In this document: positions 2,417-42,773 of the stretch, in pieces
Position numbering within the stretch: the first letter of the stretch is position 1
Layout of the letters: each line of letters begins with the position of its first letter
NCBI GenBank assembly: GCA_947167995.1
Contig: CAMVKS010000018.1
Span: 1-47,235, forward strand
DNA: 47,235 nucleotides
Source: an uncultured Prevotellaceae bacterium
GTDB lineage: Bacteria; Bacteroidota; Bacteroidia; Bacteroidales; Muribaculaceae
Direction of reading: 5' to 3'
The notes under the pieces: generated by a model
Told to the model about the DNA's origin: nothing
Databases searched by the model: none
What the model saw: only the letters and a program-made list of their open reading frames with translations
Translations under genes and position numbers: made by a program

Positions 2417-3007
2417 ATGAAAAAGTTATTATTAATGTTTGCAGTTGCAGGGCTTATTGCATCTTGCACAGGTAATGGAACAACAAGTGGCAGTGCCAGC
2501 GGTGAGCAAAAAGACAGCGCTAAAACCGAAGAGGCCAAAGAGAAGAAAGACACCCTCAAGGGTCCTGCAACTATCGAGAACCCAACATGGTCGGTTGAGT
2601 TGCCCGGCGGATGGAAAGCTCCATCGGTTCGTACAGGCGACAGCCAAAAGAACCCTTCTTACTGCGAACTCGAGCCGATTGTTGTTGAAGATGGCTTCAA
2701 AGGCCCAGTGGGCGTGAAAATCAGTTCTTATCCCTACAAGTCTAACACTGTAGAGAAAGACATGGAGTCCTTCTTCAATATCTACGAGAAAGCCAAGAAG
2801 GATGGCCAAGTTGAAATTGGTGGCGTTAAGTTCCAAAAGGCTGTTATGGTTTACGACGACGGCAACACCGTTACCCACCTCGTTGCTCCTCTCACTCCCG
2901 AAGGCAGCGTGAGCATAGAGTTCCGTCACCTCAAGTATGACGACGAGATTATCCAAACCATCCTCAAGAGCTTCAAGCTCAAGCCAGCCGAGGCTGCCGA
3001 GAAATAA
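2417..3007 (+). CDS. Putative lipoprotein of unknown function
   Basis: The product is 196 aa. The ATG at 2417 opens a lipoprotein signal peptide with lipobox IASC, so the mature protein would be lipidated at about Cys18. A low-complexity Ser/Gly/Lys/Glu linker follows to about residue 45, then a compact domain of about 145 residues. I do not recognise the family. The start was moved inward from 2336, since the extra codons overlap the previous gene and carry no signal. The gap to the upstream gene is 58 bp with no obvious separate promoter, so co-transcription is possible. A convergent hairpin follows the stop. Confidence 0.75.
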   Translation: MKKLLLMFAVAGLIASCTGNGTTSGSASGEQKDSAKTEEAKEKKDTLKGPATIENPTWSVELPGGWKAPSVRTGDSQKNPSYCELEPIVVEDGFKGPVGVKISSYPYKSNTVEKDMESFFNIYEKAKKDGQVEIGGVKFQKAVMVYDDGNTVTHLVAPLTPEGSVSIEFRHLKYDDEIIQTILKSFKLKPAEAAEK

Positions 3008-3031
3008 TCCAAATCTCTGACTTTTATCAAC

Positions 3032-3073
3032 AATTAAGGGGGTATGTCAAAATTTTGGCACACCCCCTTAATT
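3032..3073. terminator. Convergent intrinsic terminator
   Basis: An 11-bp perfect stem (AATTAAGGGGG / CCCCCTTAATT), with further partial pairing towards the loop, lies between the lipoprotein gene (+) and the kinase genes (-). On the plus strand it is followed by TTTGTTTTTT. It probably serves both directions. Confidence 0.75.
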
Positions 3074-34938: not shown

Positions 34939-35328
34939 TTAATTTTTTGTAGAAATTACATCATTTAATTTTTCCAAAAGCTGGATTCTGGCCTCTTTTT
35001 CACGGAGACGTTCCTCCTTTTCTTTCAACATCTCATCACGGAATTGAAGCTGCTCACGAAGGTGGGCAAGCTGGTTTCGCAGTTGAGTAATGTTTAGACT
35101 TTTCAGTTCTTCCTCTGTCGACATCTCAACACCCTCTCTTATAAATAAGGTGTCAATAGATACACCGAGAAAGTCCGCTATCGCTTCTAACCGTTTTGCA
35201 GAAGGATTACCTGTCACCAGCGCATTAACTGATGTTTGTTTAGGATTCATCCCTATGGCTCGCAAAAGATCACCATAAGGGATATTCTTCCTGTCTAACA
35301 GTTCTTTAATGATTTTTCCGTTGTACAT
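34939..35328 (-). CDS. Phage-type XRE repressor with coiled-coil tail
   Basis: The product is 129 aa. An N-terminal HTH (about 5-65; the segment around LLRAIGMNPKQTSVNALVTGN holds the recognition helix) is followed by a long charged coiled coil (about 72-125) with repeated KEERLREKEAR units, likely for dimerisation. There is no peptidase domain, so induction would not be by LexA-type self-cleavage. It is divergent from the early genes of the element, with paired inverted repeats between, the layout of a lysogeny switch. Confidence 0.8.
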   Translation of the reverse strand: MYNGKIIKELLDRKNIPYGDLLRAIGMNPKQTSVNALVTGNPSAKRLEAIADFLGVSIDTLFIREGVEMSTEEELKSLNITQLRNQLAHLREQLQFRDEMLKEKEERLREKEARIQLLEKLNDVISTKN

Positions 35329-35649: not shown

Positions 35650-35893
35650 TATATTTGACAGTTATCACACAGTGAAGGAATGGGAAGATGCGGCAGAAAA
35701 AGACAGACGCATCACATTCAATGCCGTATATTATGTCATGGGCAAGAGAGTTCTTGATCATGTGACCGGCATCGTGAAAATTGAGCAGCCCGATGGGGAG
35801 ACTGCCCATAGGTGTGTAATGTGGCACAGCAACGGCCAATGCTATGTTGGCAAGGAACATCTGCCAGAGTTCGACATAAACTTTGATGATTGA
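35642..35893 (+). CDS. Small early phage protein of unknown function
   Basis: The product is 83 aa with no recognised domain; mixed alpha/beta with an acidic end (FDINFDD). It overlaps the gene before by 8 bp and the primase-helicase gene after it by 8 bp, so the three genes are translationally coupled. A role in replication or its control is suggested only by position. Confidence 0.7.
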   Translation: MSSIFDSYHTVKEWEDAAEKDRRITFNAVYYVMGKRVLDHVTGIVKIEQPDGETAHRCVMWHSNGQCYVGKEHLPEFDINFDD

Positions 35894-38800
35894 TGAAAGA
35901 ACAATAGAGAGCATTCTTGACCGCGTCGACATAGTTGACGTGGTCGGTCGCTATGTACCAGACCTGAAACAGAAAGGGAGCAACTACCAATGCTGCTGCC
36001 CTTTCCATAGCGAGCGCACACCTTCTTTCATCGTGAACAAGGCACGAAATACCTGGCACTGCTTTGGAGCTTGTGCCGAAGGAGGCAACGCCATCAAGTT
36101 TGTAATGAAGTACAACAACTATACTTTCCCAGAAGCGGTAAAGGAGTTAGCAGGGATGTGCGGAGTCACCTTAGAAGAAAGTAAGGAAAAGCCTTCGGCT
36201 GAACAAATAGAGAAAAACAAGAAGCGAGAGGCTATGTTTATCGCTTACGAAGTGCTGCAACGCTTCTTTGAGGGGCAGCTGAGGGCAAGCGATGAAGAAG
36301 CAGCAAGGGCACATTCATATGCCGTAAAACGGTGGAATAGTGATTTTATTCAAGAATGCGGAATAGGATATGCGCCCAAGAACAGTCAACTCCTAATCCG
36401 ATATGCTGAGGCAAACAACATTTCCACGAAACTTCTCATGGAAATGGACTTGTTGAGGCAGTCTGAAAGAGATGGGCACCTGTATGCTTTCTTTCGTGAA
36501 CGCATCATGATTCCAATACGTGACCGATTCAGCAGGGTCATAGGTTATACTGCTCGCTATATTGGCAACAATACTGATGCGCCTAAATATTTGAATTCAT
36601 CTTCCACCCTACTGTATAATAAGGACAAGTCTGTATTTGGAATACACCTGGCGACAAGAGCTGCAGTGAAAGAGAACAAATGCTATCTTGTAGAAGGTGC
36701 ACCGGATGTGTTGAGGCTACAGGCTATAGGAGCGAATAATGTGGCAGCTTCTCTTGGTTCTGCATGGACCGACAATCAGATGAAAATGCTGAAAAGGTTG
36801 ACCACAAAACTATGTTTCCTGCCAGATGCAGACCCACCAAAGCCTGACGAACCGTATGGCACAGGCATCAAAGCGGTTATCAATAACGCCCTGCTCGCCC
36901 TCAAGAATGGGTTTGAGGTCACAGTGAAAGAGATTCCTCTGGCAGCCGGTGGAAAGAAGAATGATCCTGACACATACTGTACGAGTAAGAAGGTTCTTGA
37001 CAACATCAACGAGGAAGATTTCATCTTGTGGTATGCGAAAAAACTCTTTGAGAATGGTGCGACACAAGATGAAAAGAGTAATGCCGTTGTCACTATCGCC
37101 AATCTCGTAGCATCAGTGAATGATGACGTTAAGCAGTCTATGTATATTGACACGCTCCACAAAATAATGCCAGGAAAGGCAATGTGGAGAAATGCCATCA
37201 AGTCAGCAAAGAGACAGAAGGCCGAGACGGACATCAAATCAAGCGTCACTGTAAACCTTGACCTTCTGGAGAAATATGGTTTCCAAGAGCAGGGATACCG
37301 CTACATATCGGTCAACAGCGATGGCAGGACGAAAGAATGGTCAAACTTCGTGCTCAAACCATTGTTCCACATCAAGGACATGGTGAATCCAATAAGACTA
37401 TACAAAATCACTAACGTTAACCACCAGTCTGAAATAGTGCCATTACGTTCTGATGAGCTTGTTTCAGTGACCAAGTTCAAACAACGTATCGAAGGACTGG
37501 GTAATTATCTATGGTTCGCAAAAGATGAACAACTTATGGCTTTGAAGAAACATCTTTATTTTAGCACCGAGACTGCAATACAGATCACACAACTCGGTTG
37601 GCAGAGACAAGGCTTTTACGCCTTCGGCAATGGAATATTCGATACTGAATGGCATCCTGTGGATGACCTGGGTATCGTGAGACTTGGGGAACAGGGAAAT
37701 TTCTATTTACCTGCCTTCTCATCAGTATATAAGGACGACACGCAGTTTTTTCAGTTTGAGAGGAATTTTGTGCATCTGAACTATGGCACAATCTCTTTGT
37801 ATGACTACTCGAAAAGACTGATTGACGTTTTCGGCAATAACGCTAAAGTGGGCCTGTGCTTCCTGATTGCGACACTGTTCCGAGATGTGATAGTCGGGTA
37901 CACAAAAAATTTCCCCATTTTGAACCTGTTTGGACCTAAAGGATCGGGAAAGTCTGAGCTTGGACACTCTCTGATGTCATTCTTCATCATTGAGAACACT
38001 CCACCAAATATCGTCAACTCCACTCTTCCAGCACTGGCAGACGCTGTGGCTCAGTGTGCCAACGCGCTCGTCCACCTTGATGAGTTCAAGAACTTCATCG
38101 AAGTGGAGAAGCGTGAATTCCTGAAAGGTCTCTGGGATGGCACAGGACGTACACGAATGAATATGGATCGAGACAAGAAACGAGAGGTCACAAAAGTGGA
38201 TTGTGGCGTTATCATCAGCGGCCAGGAGATGGCAACTGCCGACATCGCCCTATTCTCACGCTTTATTTTTTTGTCTTACTCTAAGAGTGAATTCTCGTCG
38301 GCGGCAAGGGAAAAGTTCGCAGAACTGACTGAAATACGCAAGCATGGATGCTCCCATCTCACGTTGCAGATACTGAGATACAGAGCAAAATTCATTCAGG
38401 AGTTCAAGAGCAGCCTCAACTTCTGTAAGGAAGATATAACAACAGCGGTCGCTGGGGCCAACGTTGAAGACAGAATACTGTTCAACTGGTATGTGGTACT
38501 GGCAGCATACCACGCTCTGCGAGACGTGATACAACTGCCGTTTGACTACAATGAGATTCGCTCTATTGTGATTGAGGGAGTCAAGGCACAGAACAGGGAA
38601 ACAAAGTCGAACAATGAGTTGGCAAACTTCTGGAACATCGTGTCATACTTCCGTCAGGAAGGCAAGATTTGGAACGGATGTGACTACCGTATAGACATGG
38701 AGGACAGACTGAAATGTTCTAACAGAAACAATGAGATGGTGTTCCCTCAGACAAAGAGAATACTGTACCTGAGATACAGCAGGATTTTCCAGCTCTATAA

Positions 38801-39083
38801 GATGCATGGACGACAAGTCAACGAGGTCCTGATACCTCCACAATCTCTAGTATACTATCTTGAGAACTCTCCTGCATACTTCGGAAAGAAAAAATCATGG
38901 AGATACAAGGTAATAATCAATGGTATTGAGCAGACTGAGGAACGTAGAGACTCAACAAATGGTTTCGTGAAGTATGTGAAGAAATATGGCTTCGACCAGG
39001 TGATGTGTTTTGACTACGATATGCTAAAAGAGTCATACGACATCAACCTCGAAGATACAACCTCATATGACAATATACCCTGA
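35886..39083 (+). CDS. Primase-helicase replication protein
   Basis: The product is 1065 aa from the ATG at 35886 (a TTG lies 3 bp earlier). The N-terminus is a DnaG-type CHC2 zinc finger (Cys38, His41, Cys59, Cys63). It is followed by a primase/Toprim part (LVEGAPDVLRLQAIGA near 268 and PDADPP near 313) and a C-terminal AAA-type helicase with Walker A FGPKGSGKS near 682 and an acidic LDEF near 735. Such proteins carry both primase and helicase work for phages, satellites and plasmids, as P4 alpha does. It is followed by a terminator and an origin-like repeat array. Over the whole length it looks intact. Confidence 0.88.
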   Translation: MIDERTIESILDRVDIVDVVGRYVPDLKQKGSNYQCCCPFHSERTPSFIVNKARNTWHCFGACAEGGNAIKFVMKYNNYTFPEAVKELAGMCGVTLEESKEKPSAEQIEKNKKREAMFIAYEVLQRFFEGQLRASDEEAARAHSYAVKRWNSDFIQECGIGYAPKNSQLLIRYAEANNISTKLLMEMDLLRQSERDGHLYAFFRERIMIPIRDRFSRVIGYTARYIGNNTDAPKYLNSSSTLLYNKDKSVFGIHLATRAAVKENKCYLVEGAPDVLRLQAIGANNVAASLGSAWTDNQMKMLKRLTTKLCFLPDADPPKPDEPYGTGIKAVINNALLALKNGFEVTVKEIPLAAGGKKNDPDTYCTSKKVLDNINEEDFILWYAKKLFENGATQDEKSNAVVTIANLVASVNDDVKQSMYIDTLHKIMPGKAMWRNAIKSAKRQKAETDIKSSVTVNLDLLEKYGFQEQGYRYISVNSDGRTKEWSNFVLKPLFHIKDMVNPIRLYKITNVNHQSEIVPLRSDELVSVTKFKQRIEGLGNYLWFAKDEQLMALKKHLYFSTETAIQITQLGWQRQGFYAFGNGIFDTEWHPVDDLGIVRLGEQGNFYLPAFSSVYKDDTQFFQFERNFVHLNYGTISLYDYSKRLIDVFGNNAKVGLCFLIATLFRDVIVGYTKNFPILNLFGPKGSGKSELGHSLMSFFIIENTPPNIVNSTLPALADAVAQCANALVHLDEFKNFIEVEKREFLKGLWDGTGRTRMNMDRDKKREVTKVDCGVIISGQEMATADIALFSRFIFLSYSKSEFSSAAREKFAELTEIRKHGCSHLTLQILRYRAKFIQEFKSSLNFCKEDITTAVAGANVEDRILFNWYVVLAAYHALRDVIQLPFDYNEIRSIVIEGVKAQNRETKSNNELANFWNIVSYFRQEGKIWNGCDYRIDMEDRLKCSNRNNEMVFPQTKRILYLRYSRIFQLYKMHGRQVNEVLIPPQSLVYYLENSPAYFGKKKSWRYKVIINGIEQTEERRDSTNGFVKYVKKYGFDQVMCFDYDMLKESYDINLEDTTSYDNIP

Positions 39084-39124
39084 TTTGCGAAAATGTAGAT
39101 CTCTTACATTTTTAATTTGGATTG

Positions 39125-39160
39125 TAAGCACTTGCTTGGGAAAGTAGGTGCTTATTTTTT
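39125..39160 (+). terminator. Terminator of primase-helicase operon
   Basis: A 7-bp stem (TAAGCAC / GTGCTTA) with a 16-nt loop, followed immediately by six T. Confidence 0.6.
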
Positions 39161-39197
39161 GGAAGTGTCGAACGTGATAAAACCTAAGGACTTTTCT

Positions 39198-39405
39198 TTC
39201 CACACTTTCCACATATTCCACAATGTTATAAATCAATAAAATAACTAATAATGTATCATACCACAAACTTCCACAATTTTCCACAAAAGTGTTCAGCATA
39301 GTTTCTCCTGACTTTGGATTTCCACAAATGTTTCCACAATTCCACAAAACGCCATAATCTATCTTTCTGAAAATCAGGGATGTGGAATTTGTGGAAACTG
39401 TGGAA
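39198..39405. repeat. TTCCACA iteron array, candidate replication origin
   Basis: TTCCACA occurs at 39198, 39207, 39216, 39269, 39279, 39320, 39332 and 39340, with a TACCACA variant at 39259. Its inverse TGTGGAA occurs at 39381, 39390 and 39399. The first three and last three units are each spaced exactly 9 bp. TTTTCCACA at 39277 also fits a relaxed DnaA box (TTWTNCACA). An AT-rich segment (39223-39258) lies inside. This ordered array next to a primase-helicase gene fits an iteron origin. Confidence 0.65.
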
Positions 39406-39812
39406 GCCCTAGTGGGTGTATATGTTTTTTTGAAAAAAAATTGTTTTTTCGTGGTTCTCGGGTTTTAGTGCAGAAATGGTTTTTGCTACTCTCAGATTAA
39501 TTTTTGCTCTTTACATGGGTGTGTCTTGACGCTCCACTTGCAGTAGAAAGGGATGTTGCTCATAAGAAAATTCCAAAGACTCTTTGACTTGATTGTCCAT
39601 CGCTCACTTTGTTTTTACGCCGCAAAGTTAATGCGTCTCCCTCACACGCAAGGCCAGGCTACGTTGCTGCGAGAAATCTCCACACCTGCGGGTAGTATTT
39701 CTCTTGCAAGCCTTACTCTCTGTGTTGGCAGTCGCACTTTTCGGGCAGTGTAAAAAGCAAAGCGATAGCGATAACAAGATCAAAGAAGTTTCACTTATAA
39801 ATTTTCTTTATT

Positions 39813-40478
39813 ATGAGTAACAATTCCCTTTCATTCGAGTTTGCAAGCGGTGCTGACAGCACCCAAGTTCAAGAACAAGTTGTAAAAAGCTGCAGCTCCA
39901 GCTCCTCCAATCTCAAAGAGGTTTGTGAGGCTGAGTTGGACTTGGCAGACTTCAAGTTTGACTACCGTACTGACAATCCGGCCGTGTACGTCAGTTCCTA
40001 CCACCGCTACAGCTGTGGAAATTTAGATGGTATGTGGGTTGATTTATCCCTGTGTGCCGACTATGACGAGTTTATGCAGGTGTGCCGGCTCATAGTTTTC
40101 GATGAGGAAGACCCTGAGTTCATGTTCCAGGACATGCAGAACTGGCCCGATTCATGGTATGATGAAGGCTCACTGAGTGAGGACACCTTCGAGAGAATCC
40201 AAGAGTTCGCAGAGCTTGACGAGGACGAGCGCGAGGCCTTCGAGGCTTTCATGGATGTTCGTTGCGACAGTGACGTCACATTCGAGGAGTTCCGCGAGGC
40301 TTACTGCGGCAAGTGGGACAGTGAGGAAGAGTTCACCGAGAACTTGATCGACGAGCTGGGAATCCTTGACGAAGTGCCCGAGCATCTGCGACGCTTCTTT
40401 GACGTCTCGGCCTATTCAGACGAGCTTTTCCGCTATGACTATGACTTCCAAGATGGCTACATCTTTAGAGTTAGCTGA
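39813..40478 (+). CDS. ardA: ArdA-like antirestriction protein
   Basis: The product is 221 aa. After a Ser-rich leader (about 1-45) it has the ArdA layout: AVYVSSYHRYSCGNLDGMW (about 54-72), a run of Asp/Glu throughout, F.EFREAYCGKWDSEEEF (about 154-170), and a FFDVSAY...G.IFRV end. ArdA proteins mimic bent DNA and block type I restriction enzymes, which helps an incoming element. The strong acidity supports DNA mimicry. It has its own terminator with a UUCG loop. Confidence 0.88.
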   Translation: MSNNSLSFEFASGADSTQVQEQVVKSCSSSSSNLKEVCEAELDLADFKFDYRTDNPAVYVSSYHRYSCGNLDGMWVDLSLCADYDEFMQVCRLIVFDEEDPEFMFQDMQNWPDSWYDEGSLSEDTFERIQEFAELDEDEREAFEAFMDVRCDSDVTFEEFREAYCGKWDSEEEFTENLIDELGILDEVPEHLRRFFDVSAYSDELFRYDYDFQDGYIFRVS

Positions 40479-40627: not shown

Positions 40628-40646
40628 CGGCATGAATACTAAACCT

Positions 40647-41129
40647 ATGAGCGACTTTTTGATATACCTTAAATTTGAGCCGTACTTAGCCCAGTGGTTT
40701 ACACATGAGATGGGAGGAACCTCGCCAGTGGAAATTCCACGTGGCTCGGCTGAATCGGACATCCTCCAACTGTTCCTGACGAAACAACCGGAGGATGTCC
40801 CTGATGAGTGCAGAGAGGATGCGAATCTGATAATCGCCATCCCCTACTTCAAGCGCAAGGACCCACGCATTTACAATTATCTTCCGCCTAAAGCGGTGGA
40901 ATGTCTGCACAAGTGCATAAAGAACCGTTTTGATGTGCAGCTGTGGAATGATCTTCATCAGGTTCATCCGAAATCGAAAATGCTGAAGGAACTGATAGAG
41001 GCCTGGATGGAATGTCATGGGATTGAGTTTGATGACACGAACTGGTGTACCATATCTAAAAGGTACCAGAGAAAGAGAGAAATATATCTGAAGAAAAAAA
41101 CGAAAAAAATGACATCGACTTCAGAGTGA
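40647..41129 (+). CDS. Conserved Bacteroidales mobile-element protein
   Basis: The product is 160 aa from the ATG at 40647, chosen because the promoter -7 box ends 4 bp before the other ATG at 40632. The sequence (DFLIYLKFEPYLAQWFTH, then IPRGSAESDILQLFL, NYLPPKAVECLHKCIKNRFDVQLW and a final KRYQRKREIYLKKK) resembles a family I know only as hypothetical proteins in Bacteroidales prophage regions. It has a basic C-terminus that could bind nucleic acid. No function assigned. Confidence 0.75.
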   Translation: MSDFLIYLKFEPYLAQWFTHEMGGTSPVEIPRGSAESDILQLFLTKQPEDVPDECREDANLIIAIPYFKRKDPRIYNYLPPKAVECLHKCIKNRFDVQLWNDLHQVHPKSKMLKELIEAWMECHGIEFDDTNWCTISKRYQRKREIYLKKKTKKMTSTSE

Positions 41130-41711: not shown

Positions 41712-42773
41712 ATGCCACAACCTAATTATAATCTTCATCTGAAAGGCTACGTCGGAGGATGCGACTTCGACCGTAACTATGTGGACTATGTTCTGGCCAA
41801 GAACAAAGACAAACCGGTTCACGTTCTCATTGACAGCCTGGGGGGATCGCTCGCGACTGCACTATCCATCGCCAGCGCCTTCCGTGCGCATGGCGATGTG
41901 ACAGTGCACTTCGTGGGGATGAACGCTAGCGCGGCGACTGTCGCCTCCCTCGGTGCCAAGCATATCTCCATGGACTCGTCGGCAATGTACCTGGTGCACA
42001 AATGCAGCGCGGAGTTCTTTGAGTGGGGAAACCTCAATGCCGACCAGCTCGCTGAGGTGCGCGACAACTGTGAGGCTGCCATACGTGACCTGAATAAGCT
42101 GGACAACAATATCGCCACCATGTATGCAGGCAAGTGCAGCAAGAAACAGCAAGATCTGCTCGACCTCATGAAGGAAGGTGGATGGCTGTCGGCAAAGGAA
42201 GCTCTGGAATGGGGATTTGTGGATGAGGTTACGGAGTTCCAGGAACCTAAGCCTGTACTCACGGATGCAGTGGCTTCGGCCATGGCAGCTGCTGGTATGC
42301 CTATCCCAAACGTACCTACCGATGGCAAGGAAACGCTGTTCGCACGTTTCCTCGCTTCTATAGCCGCGCTGTTCAAGCCAGGCTCGTTAAAGGATGAGGA
42401 AGAGCCTGAGACTGATGACGAGCCATTAGAAGTTAATAAATATAATAACGTTAGTAACTCTGTAGCAGAAACCATGAACCAAACACAATCCTTTTCGCTC
42501 TTGGGCAAAGTCCTCAATGTGGAGGGCTTTGCCGTGGGTGAGAACGGCGTGACGCTATCTATTGAACAGATGCAAGCGGTAGAGAACGCTCTTGCCGATC
42601 GTGACAGGAGCAACGCCGAACTCACAGAGCAGGTGGCAGCACTGAAAGCGGCTCCTGCTGAGAAGTCCCAGTCTGTCGTTGATGACAAGTCTCAACATGA
42701 GGCAGACAATCCTTTTGCTCAATTCGCCAACAAGGTGAACAACGCACGACAAATGTATAATCAAGTACCGTAA
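41712..42773 (+). CDS. ClpP-type head maturation protease fused to scaffold
   Basis: The product is 353 aa. Residues about 1-180 form a ClpP/SppA-like serine protease with SLGGS (42-46), nucleophile Ser73 in GMNASAAT and His96 in VHKC. The C-terminal about 100 residues (from about 255) are charged and helical (MQAVENALADRDRSNAELTE region), typical of a capsid assembly scaffold. A Met at residue 255 (ATG at 42474) with an AT-rich lead could start a nested scaffold, as in lambda C/Nu3. The protease is expected to process head proteins. The major capsid gene follows 13 bp later. Confidence 0.87.
   Translation: MPQPNYNLHLKGYVGGCDFDRNYVDYVLAKNKDKPVHVLIDSLGGSLATALSIASAFRAHGDVTVHFVGMNASAATVASLGAKHISMDSSAMYLVHKCSAEFFEWGNLNADQLAEVRDNCEAAIRDLNKLDNNIATMYAGKCSKKQQDLLDLMKEGGWLSAKEALEWGFVDEVTEFQEPKPVLTDAVASAMAAAGMPIPNVPTDGKETLFARFLASIAALFKPGSLKDEEEPETDDEPLEVNKYNNVSNSVAETMNQTQSFSLLGKVLNVEGFAVGENGVTLSIEQMQAVENALADRDRSNAELTEQVAALKAAPAEKSQSVVDDKSQHEADNPFAQFANKVNNARQMYNQVP

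Follow-up and report, generated by a model that had tools for sequence, protein, structure and literature searches.

A short-repeat array beside a primase-helicase gene as the candidate replication origin of a Bacteroidales temperate phage family

Comparison of related elements suggests that an array of TTCCACA units next to a primase-helicase gene is the replication origin of a family of temperate phages of gut and oral Bacteroidales, and that it would be bound by the phage's own primase-helicase; we put the probability of this reading at about 0.8. The array lies in a DNA stretch of 47,235 nucleotides (the window), one whole contig of a draft genome (G000:C18) that carries host-type genes up to about 33 kb and a phage element after them. 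The layout of the array is largely kept among relatives while the repeated word changes, and an origin is the best reading. The iteron origin proposed in the preliminary description of this DNA was partly supported, without its P4-alpha and DnaA components.

The array in the window

The whole array, the proposed replication origin, occupies 39198..39405. TTCCACA starts on the + strand at 39198, 39207, 39216, 39269, 39279, 39320, 39332 and 39340 and lies on the − strand at 39381, 39390 and 39399; one variant unit, TACCACA, is at 39259-39265. These positions confirm the eight exact units, one variant and three inverted units described earlier, as well as the strict 9-bp spacing of the first three and the last three. 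The left arm (39198..39222, +) consists of three TTCCACA units in exact 9-bp phase, followed by an AT-rich left spacer (39223..39258; 14% GC, versus 46.6% GC in the window), a candidate unwinding element. Within it, at 39231..39243 (+), lies a site with one mismatch to WATCAANNNNTTR, which we take to be the E. coli IHF consensus. A middle block (39259..39285, +) holds the variant and two TTCCACA units in 10-bp phase; since the variant keeps this phase with the next two units it belongs to their block, and its placement was corrected to +61. The second middle block (39320..39346, +) contains three TTCCACA units spaced 12 and 8 bp, and the right arm (39381..39405, −) three inverted TTCCACA units, again in exact 9-bp phase.

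The repetition is far above chance. The intergenic stretch 39084-39812 contains 11 copies of TTCCACA, versus a mean of 0.15 and a maximum of 2 in 2000 dinucleotide shuffles, and the commonest of any 7-mer reached at most 9 copies in 1000 shuffles of the same stretch. An RNA element was considered and rejected: Rfam gave only matches far below gathering scores on 38900-40000, and 39198-39345 folds no better than its shuffles (169 of 200 were as good).

The gene order around the array was confirmed, with the primase-helicase on one side and ardA on the other. In the phage element, a gene for an HTH regulator (34939-35328, −) precedes that of the 1065-aa primase-helicase, the proposed initiator (35886..39083, +), and the array starts 115 bp past the stop of the latter. 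An intrinsic-terminator-like hairpin with a T run (39124..39161, +) lies between the primase gene and the array, and the segment 39118-39162 folds at −18.9 kcal/mol (z −6.7). Past the array come ardA (39813..40478, +), which in this lineage separates the array from the conserved small gene, then the small-gene homolog itself (40632..41129, +), whose family usually lies 3' of the array, and the gene for a head maturation protease (41712..42773, +), which marks the element as a phage.

Linkage, layout and word changes among relatives

Relatives were collected both from the protein and from the DNA. The window protein led to 37 viral loci and, on a search of 101 genomes of the genus, to full-length relatives there. 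L006 duplicates L005 and was excluded; of the 36 viral loci then scanned, 30 have a dense CTACA or CCACA array, and five further ones show a similar layout with another word (TTCAACA in L024, L026 and L027, TGCTACC in L035 and TTGTAATA in L037); the stretch examined of the viral locus L018 has no array. Among the full-length loci of the genus, 19 of 23 have an array in the stretch scanned, and L058 and L060 have one on the same contig, found as L106 and L104, for a primase-first total of 56 arrays in 59 loci. No array was found in L059, a locus 1.7 kb from a contig end, and the usual array is absent across the 21.6-kb contig of L063 (39% identity), which has only a short tandem run. None was found in Cellulophaga phage Ingeline (primase 26% identity), nor in two faecal phage fragments (L245 and L246, primases 37-38%) that stop about 170 bp or less from the primase match. 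The contig of the relative without the usual array (L279, G100:C46) bears tandem TATAC-containing units about 8.5 bp apart at about 2996-3060.

The DNA-first search for the layout returned 52 stretches in genomes and, in viral contigs, 15 matches with CCACA and 44 with CTACA. Rows with no opposed inverted arm or with the look of tandem repeats, on our own reading, were dropped: nine of the 52 genome rows (L070, L095, L096, L105, L110, L111, L119, L120 and L121, of which L095 and L120 have a single inverted unit each), three of the 44 viral CTACA rows (L146, L147 and L149), and all of the 15 viral CCACA rows except L123, the sole CCACA viral match with an inverted arm, located on the same contig as L003. 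The 43 genome stretches and 41 viral CTACA rows kept make up 84 array-first loci. A primase gene is present on the same contig in 75 of these, within the stretch in 65 and 0.4 to 12.4 kb away in ten more, where the array in most cases adjoins the small gene; the remaining nine loci are contig ends or fragments. The protein-first and DNA-first counts overlap, since many contigs are common to both. In the window and in most relatives, no more than a few hundred bp separate the initiator gene from the array 3' of it; in the exceptions the distance is 0.8 to 12.4 kb. Of 297 genomes of the family, six contain the TTCCACA triplet; they all belong to the window's genus, and each has a primase that is 79% or more alike. 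Genome G051 holds two related elements (G051:C7 and G051:C20), with primases 84% and 100% like the window's and a TTCCACA array in both. A genome titled Staphylococcus sp. (L108, JAMPDC010000001.1) bears a Bacteroidales-type phage with an array; this record may be mislabelled.

Layouts were compared in 68 non-redundant arrays, obtained from 83 non-redundant rows by removing 13 rows (seven loci) and two duplicates, one on the reverse strand and one shifted. The dense arrays of L025, L029 (unusual spacing), L035, L048 and L050 were not taken by the selection rule. The layout is nearly fixed in the 68: 9-bp-spaced units, an AT-rich spacer, a block in about 10-bp phase and inverted units. Plus-strand units lie at 0, 9 and 18 in 68, 68 and 61 arrays, respectively, the first two positions being required by the selection rule. 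Further ones cluster near 50, 61, 71, 81, 91, 110, 121, 130 and 141, and inverted units lie mostly near 180-201, 189-211 and 198-220. From +55 on, the best period of the units is 9.95 bp (mean vector 0.83, 360 positions, related arrays unweighted), which places them on about one face of the helix. The spacer past the third unit has a mean of 28% GC versus 43% upstream. Array spans are shorter in the distant relatives L152 and L180, and the outer triplets of the Porphyromonas phages and of L247 are 8 or 10 bp apart and were missed by the fixed 9-bp detector; the layout is therefore not universal. The preliminary description had suggested asking whether spacing is conserved when sequence is not, and across the related elements this was the case.

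The units of an array change in concert, most of them sharing one word that differs between arrays. The words TTCCACA, TTCTACA, nCTACA, TTCAACA and TTGTAATA are found across the relatives, with further words and somewhat different spacing in more distant ones. Two words occur within one host species: of 18 Porphyromonas phage records matched, 13 were examined, four with GTCCTACA, eight with GTCCAACA, and one (L255) whose stretch ended before the array. The IHF-like site, in contrast to the word, stays. It lies at a fixed distance in the left spacer, exactly in 14 of 68 arrays and with at most one mismatch in 38 (shuffle means 0.2 and 2.7), as scored with a consensus that is that of E. coli and maybe not that of Bacteroidales; in two control stretches the same motif gave nothing. 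The right arm gave a weaker signal, 9 of 55 with at most one mismatch on either strand in a fixed window (shuffle means about 2) and 21 of 64 facing inward in a wider window (shuffle mean 4.8). A word that switches while the IHF-like site stays is expected for a phage-encoded reader beside a host factor. We tentatively suggest, at somewhat under even odds, that initiator and origin were re-coded together many times, the unit word changing as a set under a constant layout and IHF-like site. Through such switching, related phages that share a host would become blind to each other at replication, which might be an escape from satellites or co-resident prophages; it would also leave a natural word-versus-protein table from which to read a recognition code.

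There tends to be a terminator on one side of the array and a promoter on the other. With a loose rule and no shuffle control, 56 of 66 arrays were found to have a terminator-like hairpin at most 170 nt upstream; its stem varies between phages, and the loop is often GTGA or GGGA. The motif TANNTTTG, presumably a promoter motif of the Bacteroides type, occurs within 160 nt past the array in 42 of 65 cases versus 6.4 expected, mostly 58-83 nt away and before the small gene and head operon, and 17 of the 65 arrays have, along with it, an upstream TTG at promoter distance. This order fits an origin shielded from transcription and leaves room for late-gene control. For 58 of 68 arrays the locus contains a homolog of the small gene, as a rule a short way past the array and ahead of the head genes; the protein, about 160 aa long, matched nothing in Pfam at 0.001 or in PHROG at 0.01. 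It is very different in several phage pairs with close primases. The P. gingivalis phage L259 has a primase 99% identical to those of L257 and L258, with a small gene 65% identical and a next gene about half identical, a sharp divergence that is a sign of recombination right after the array.

The proposed initiator and competing readings

The N-terminal part of the primase-helicase (DnaG zinc ribbon, catalytic core and Toprim) passes the curated cut-off of TIGR01391 dnaG, and is followed by a middle region (residues about 431-640), a P-loop helicase part (GPKGSGKS, by our own reading of the sequence) and a C-terminal part. In a profile search the window's own helicase segment reached no family, so that its assignment to the DUF927 type rests on homology to relatives. 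DUF927 is over the Pfam cut-off in L022, L152 and L020 (three of nine relatives scanned) and below it in L025, and 8 of 38 helicase segments match it at E ≤ 1, the best at 3.1e-6; the SCCmec Cch1 model gave 4.8e-6 in L037, below its cut-off. We class the protein as a DnaG-type primase fused to a predicted DUF927-type helicase, and it is through these relatives that an initiator helicase of the DUF927/Rep kind, the type of SaPI/PICI, is found here. Its earlier designation as a primase-helicase of the P4-alpha kind was not borne out, the families found being DnaG and, by relatives, DUF927. No D5_N or P4-type family was found in the proteins scanned, and DUF5906 appeared only below its cut-off. 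A PDB search returned generic P-loop matches only for the helicase part and none for the C-terminal region, which gives the impression that it may be a winged helix.

The unit word tracks the primase-helicase rather than the neighbouring small gene, which makes the primase-helicase the favoured candidate binder. In partial Mantel tests on 44 loci, with p-values that ignore shared ancestry, unit distance goes with primase distance when that of the small gene is controlled for (r 0.41, p 0.0002), and not with small-gene distance when the primase is controlled for (r 0.09, p 0.16). The primase regions adding Mantel signal in these 44 loci are 431-640, 831-960 and 961-1060, and the DnaG part and helicase core add none. 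L071 and L087 share 99% primase identity and one common unit, with a small gene only 30% identical; likewise L013, L015 and L016, whose primases are 76-81% shared, have a common unit and small genes at 14-20%. The small gene is disfavoured as reader, given that the unit does not follow it once the primase is accounted for.

Two candidate binders had been named in the preliminary description, and the second, host DnaA, is disfavoured. Binding by DnaA would make the units variants of the DnaA box, which we take to be TTATCCACA, and one copy, TTTTCCACA at 39277-39285, fits TTWTNCACA. However, the bases preceding CCACA vary among units, and most relatives have CTACA instead, the rest CAACA or some other word. 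Domain IV, the DNA-binding domain of DnaA, was read in 13 genomes, out of 14 that gave a match and 15 searched. Across 79 aa it is the same in the host of a TTCCACA phage (G057), in two hosts of TTCTACA phages (G029 and G090) and in that of an nCTACA phage (G058), and one residue differs in G059. Because domain IV is the same in hosts whose phages have three words, we regard a reading by DnaA as highly improbable, and indeed, among hosts that share one DnaA, no single DnaA box accounts for the units of the different elements.

The array might instead serve as an operator, at which the small protein (ORF160) or the primase-helicase would control the promoter of the downstream head-gene operon. 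The TANNTTTG motif past 42 of 65 arrays, in 17 with the upstream TTG, and the small-gene homolog soon after most arrays suit such a role. It is nevertheless unlikely: a dozen units in two opposed arms exceed, in our judgement, what an operator usually needs, the unit does not follow the small gene once the primase is accounted for, and helicase kin have origins at the corresponding place in the published passages cited below. Much less probable again is a site for packaging or partition. It would agree with the position of the array upstream of the small gene and head operon in relatives with listed genes (the L255 stretch ended before the array), and BK068100.1 has, upstream of its primase, a 49-aa gene with a ParB-like annotation; yet in the three Porphyromonas phages examined over their full length the large terminase gene comes about 8 kb later, the unit follows the primase-helicase, and the annotation of the records examined contains no ParA/ParB pair.

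For the array as an origin, the following pathway can be proposed. The middle region of the primase-helicase, its C-terminal region or both would bind the short units, and the protein would assemble as two facing sets on the opposed arms, with the left spacer perhaps folded by a host bending protein of the IHF/HU type. The AT-rich spacer would then melt, the DUF927-type helicase would load itself with no separate loader, and the fused DnaG primase would make primers. GC skew was uninformative as a marker of the origin: in 7 phage genomes or prophages it does not turn at the array, and mostly rises or falls along the whole element. If the origin reading is right, it provides a candidate origin for a phage family and shows where to look in any member, together with about ten natural pairs of word and initiator on which recognition of the origin by such a helicase could be tested.

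Comparison with known systems

Iteron plasmid origins of the RepA, pi and TrfA types contain direct repeats, an AT-rich region and sometimes IHF sites. The array has direct repeats, an AT-rich region and an IHF-like site in common with them, and differs in its opposed arms and in a proposed initiator that is a primase-helicase and not a helicase-less Rep-type protein. P4 alpha combines primase and helicase in one protein and acts on a repeat-containing origin (ori/crr); the replication protein of pRN1 is also a primase-helicase. The single protein with a repeat-containing origin is the likeness to P4, whereas DnaG and a DUF927-type helicase are assigned here and no P4-type family was seen in the proteins scanned. 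Alpha and its cognate ori are named in a passage of PMC6092414. An essential origin lies just downstream of the replication-protein gene in the pRN1-type archaeal plasmid, as described in PMC4234260, where it is a stem-loop of about 100 nt and not a set of short repeats. An open literature search, covering titles and abstract starts with most subscription papers outside it, yielded none on such an origin. In PMC10367356, on P. gingivalis prophages, the word 'primase' does not occur in the main text, and the passages seen describe no replication origin.

In the excerpts of PMC7581432 that concern SCCmec, Cch contains DUF927 and is a relative of SaPIbov1 Rep, and the C-terminal domain of Cch2 binds a putative iteron origin downstream of its operon. 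Cch2 differs, on the same account, in having three iterons only and a separate polymerase-primase, with no fused DnaG.

The array looks like a close relative of the SaPI layout, now in full temperate phages of gut and oral Bacteroidales. As far as the published passages describe SaPI origins, iterons lie directly downstream of rep (PMC7581432, PMC6092414), two sets of them flank an AT-rich region in a segment that drives plasmid replication (PMC6092414), and the C-terminal domain of Rep recognises them (PMC7581432). Going by these descriptions, the pri-rep-ori of SaPI/PICI (SaPIbov1 Rep) is alike in an initiator helicase related to the DUF927-containing Cch, in a short-repeat origin 3' of the initiator gene, and in two unit sets around an AT-rich region, to which extra middle blocks are added here. 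The differences are full-size temperate phages of Bacteroidales as carriers, a fused DnaG-type primase where the primases of SaPIbov1 and SaPI5 are reported to be AEP-type (PMC7581432), opposed 9-bp triplets with a phased middle block and an IHF-like site, and a distance of kilobases between array and gene in some phages. Capsid, terminase, portal and tail genes are annotated in the Porphyromonas relatives, and the window has its head maturation protease, so that the element does not have the character of a satellite. The element itself is not a PICI, although its replicon type may be common with SaPI/PICI.
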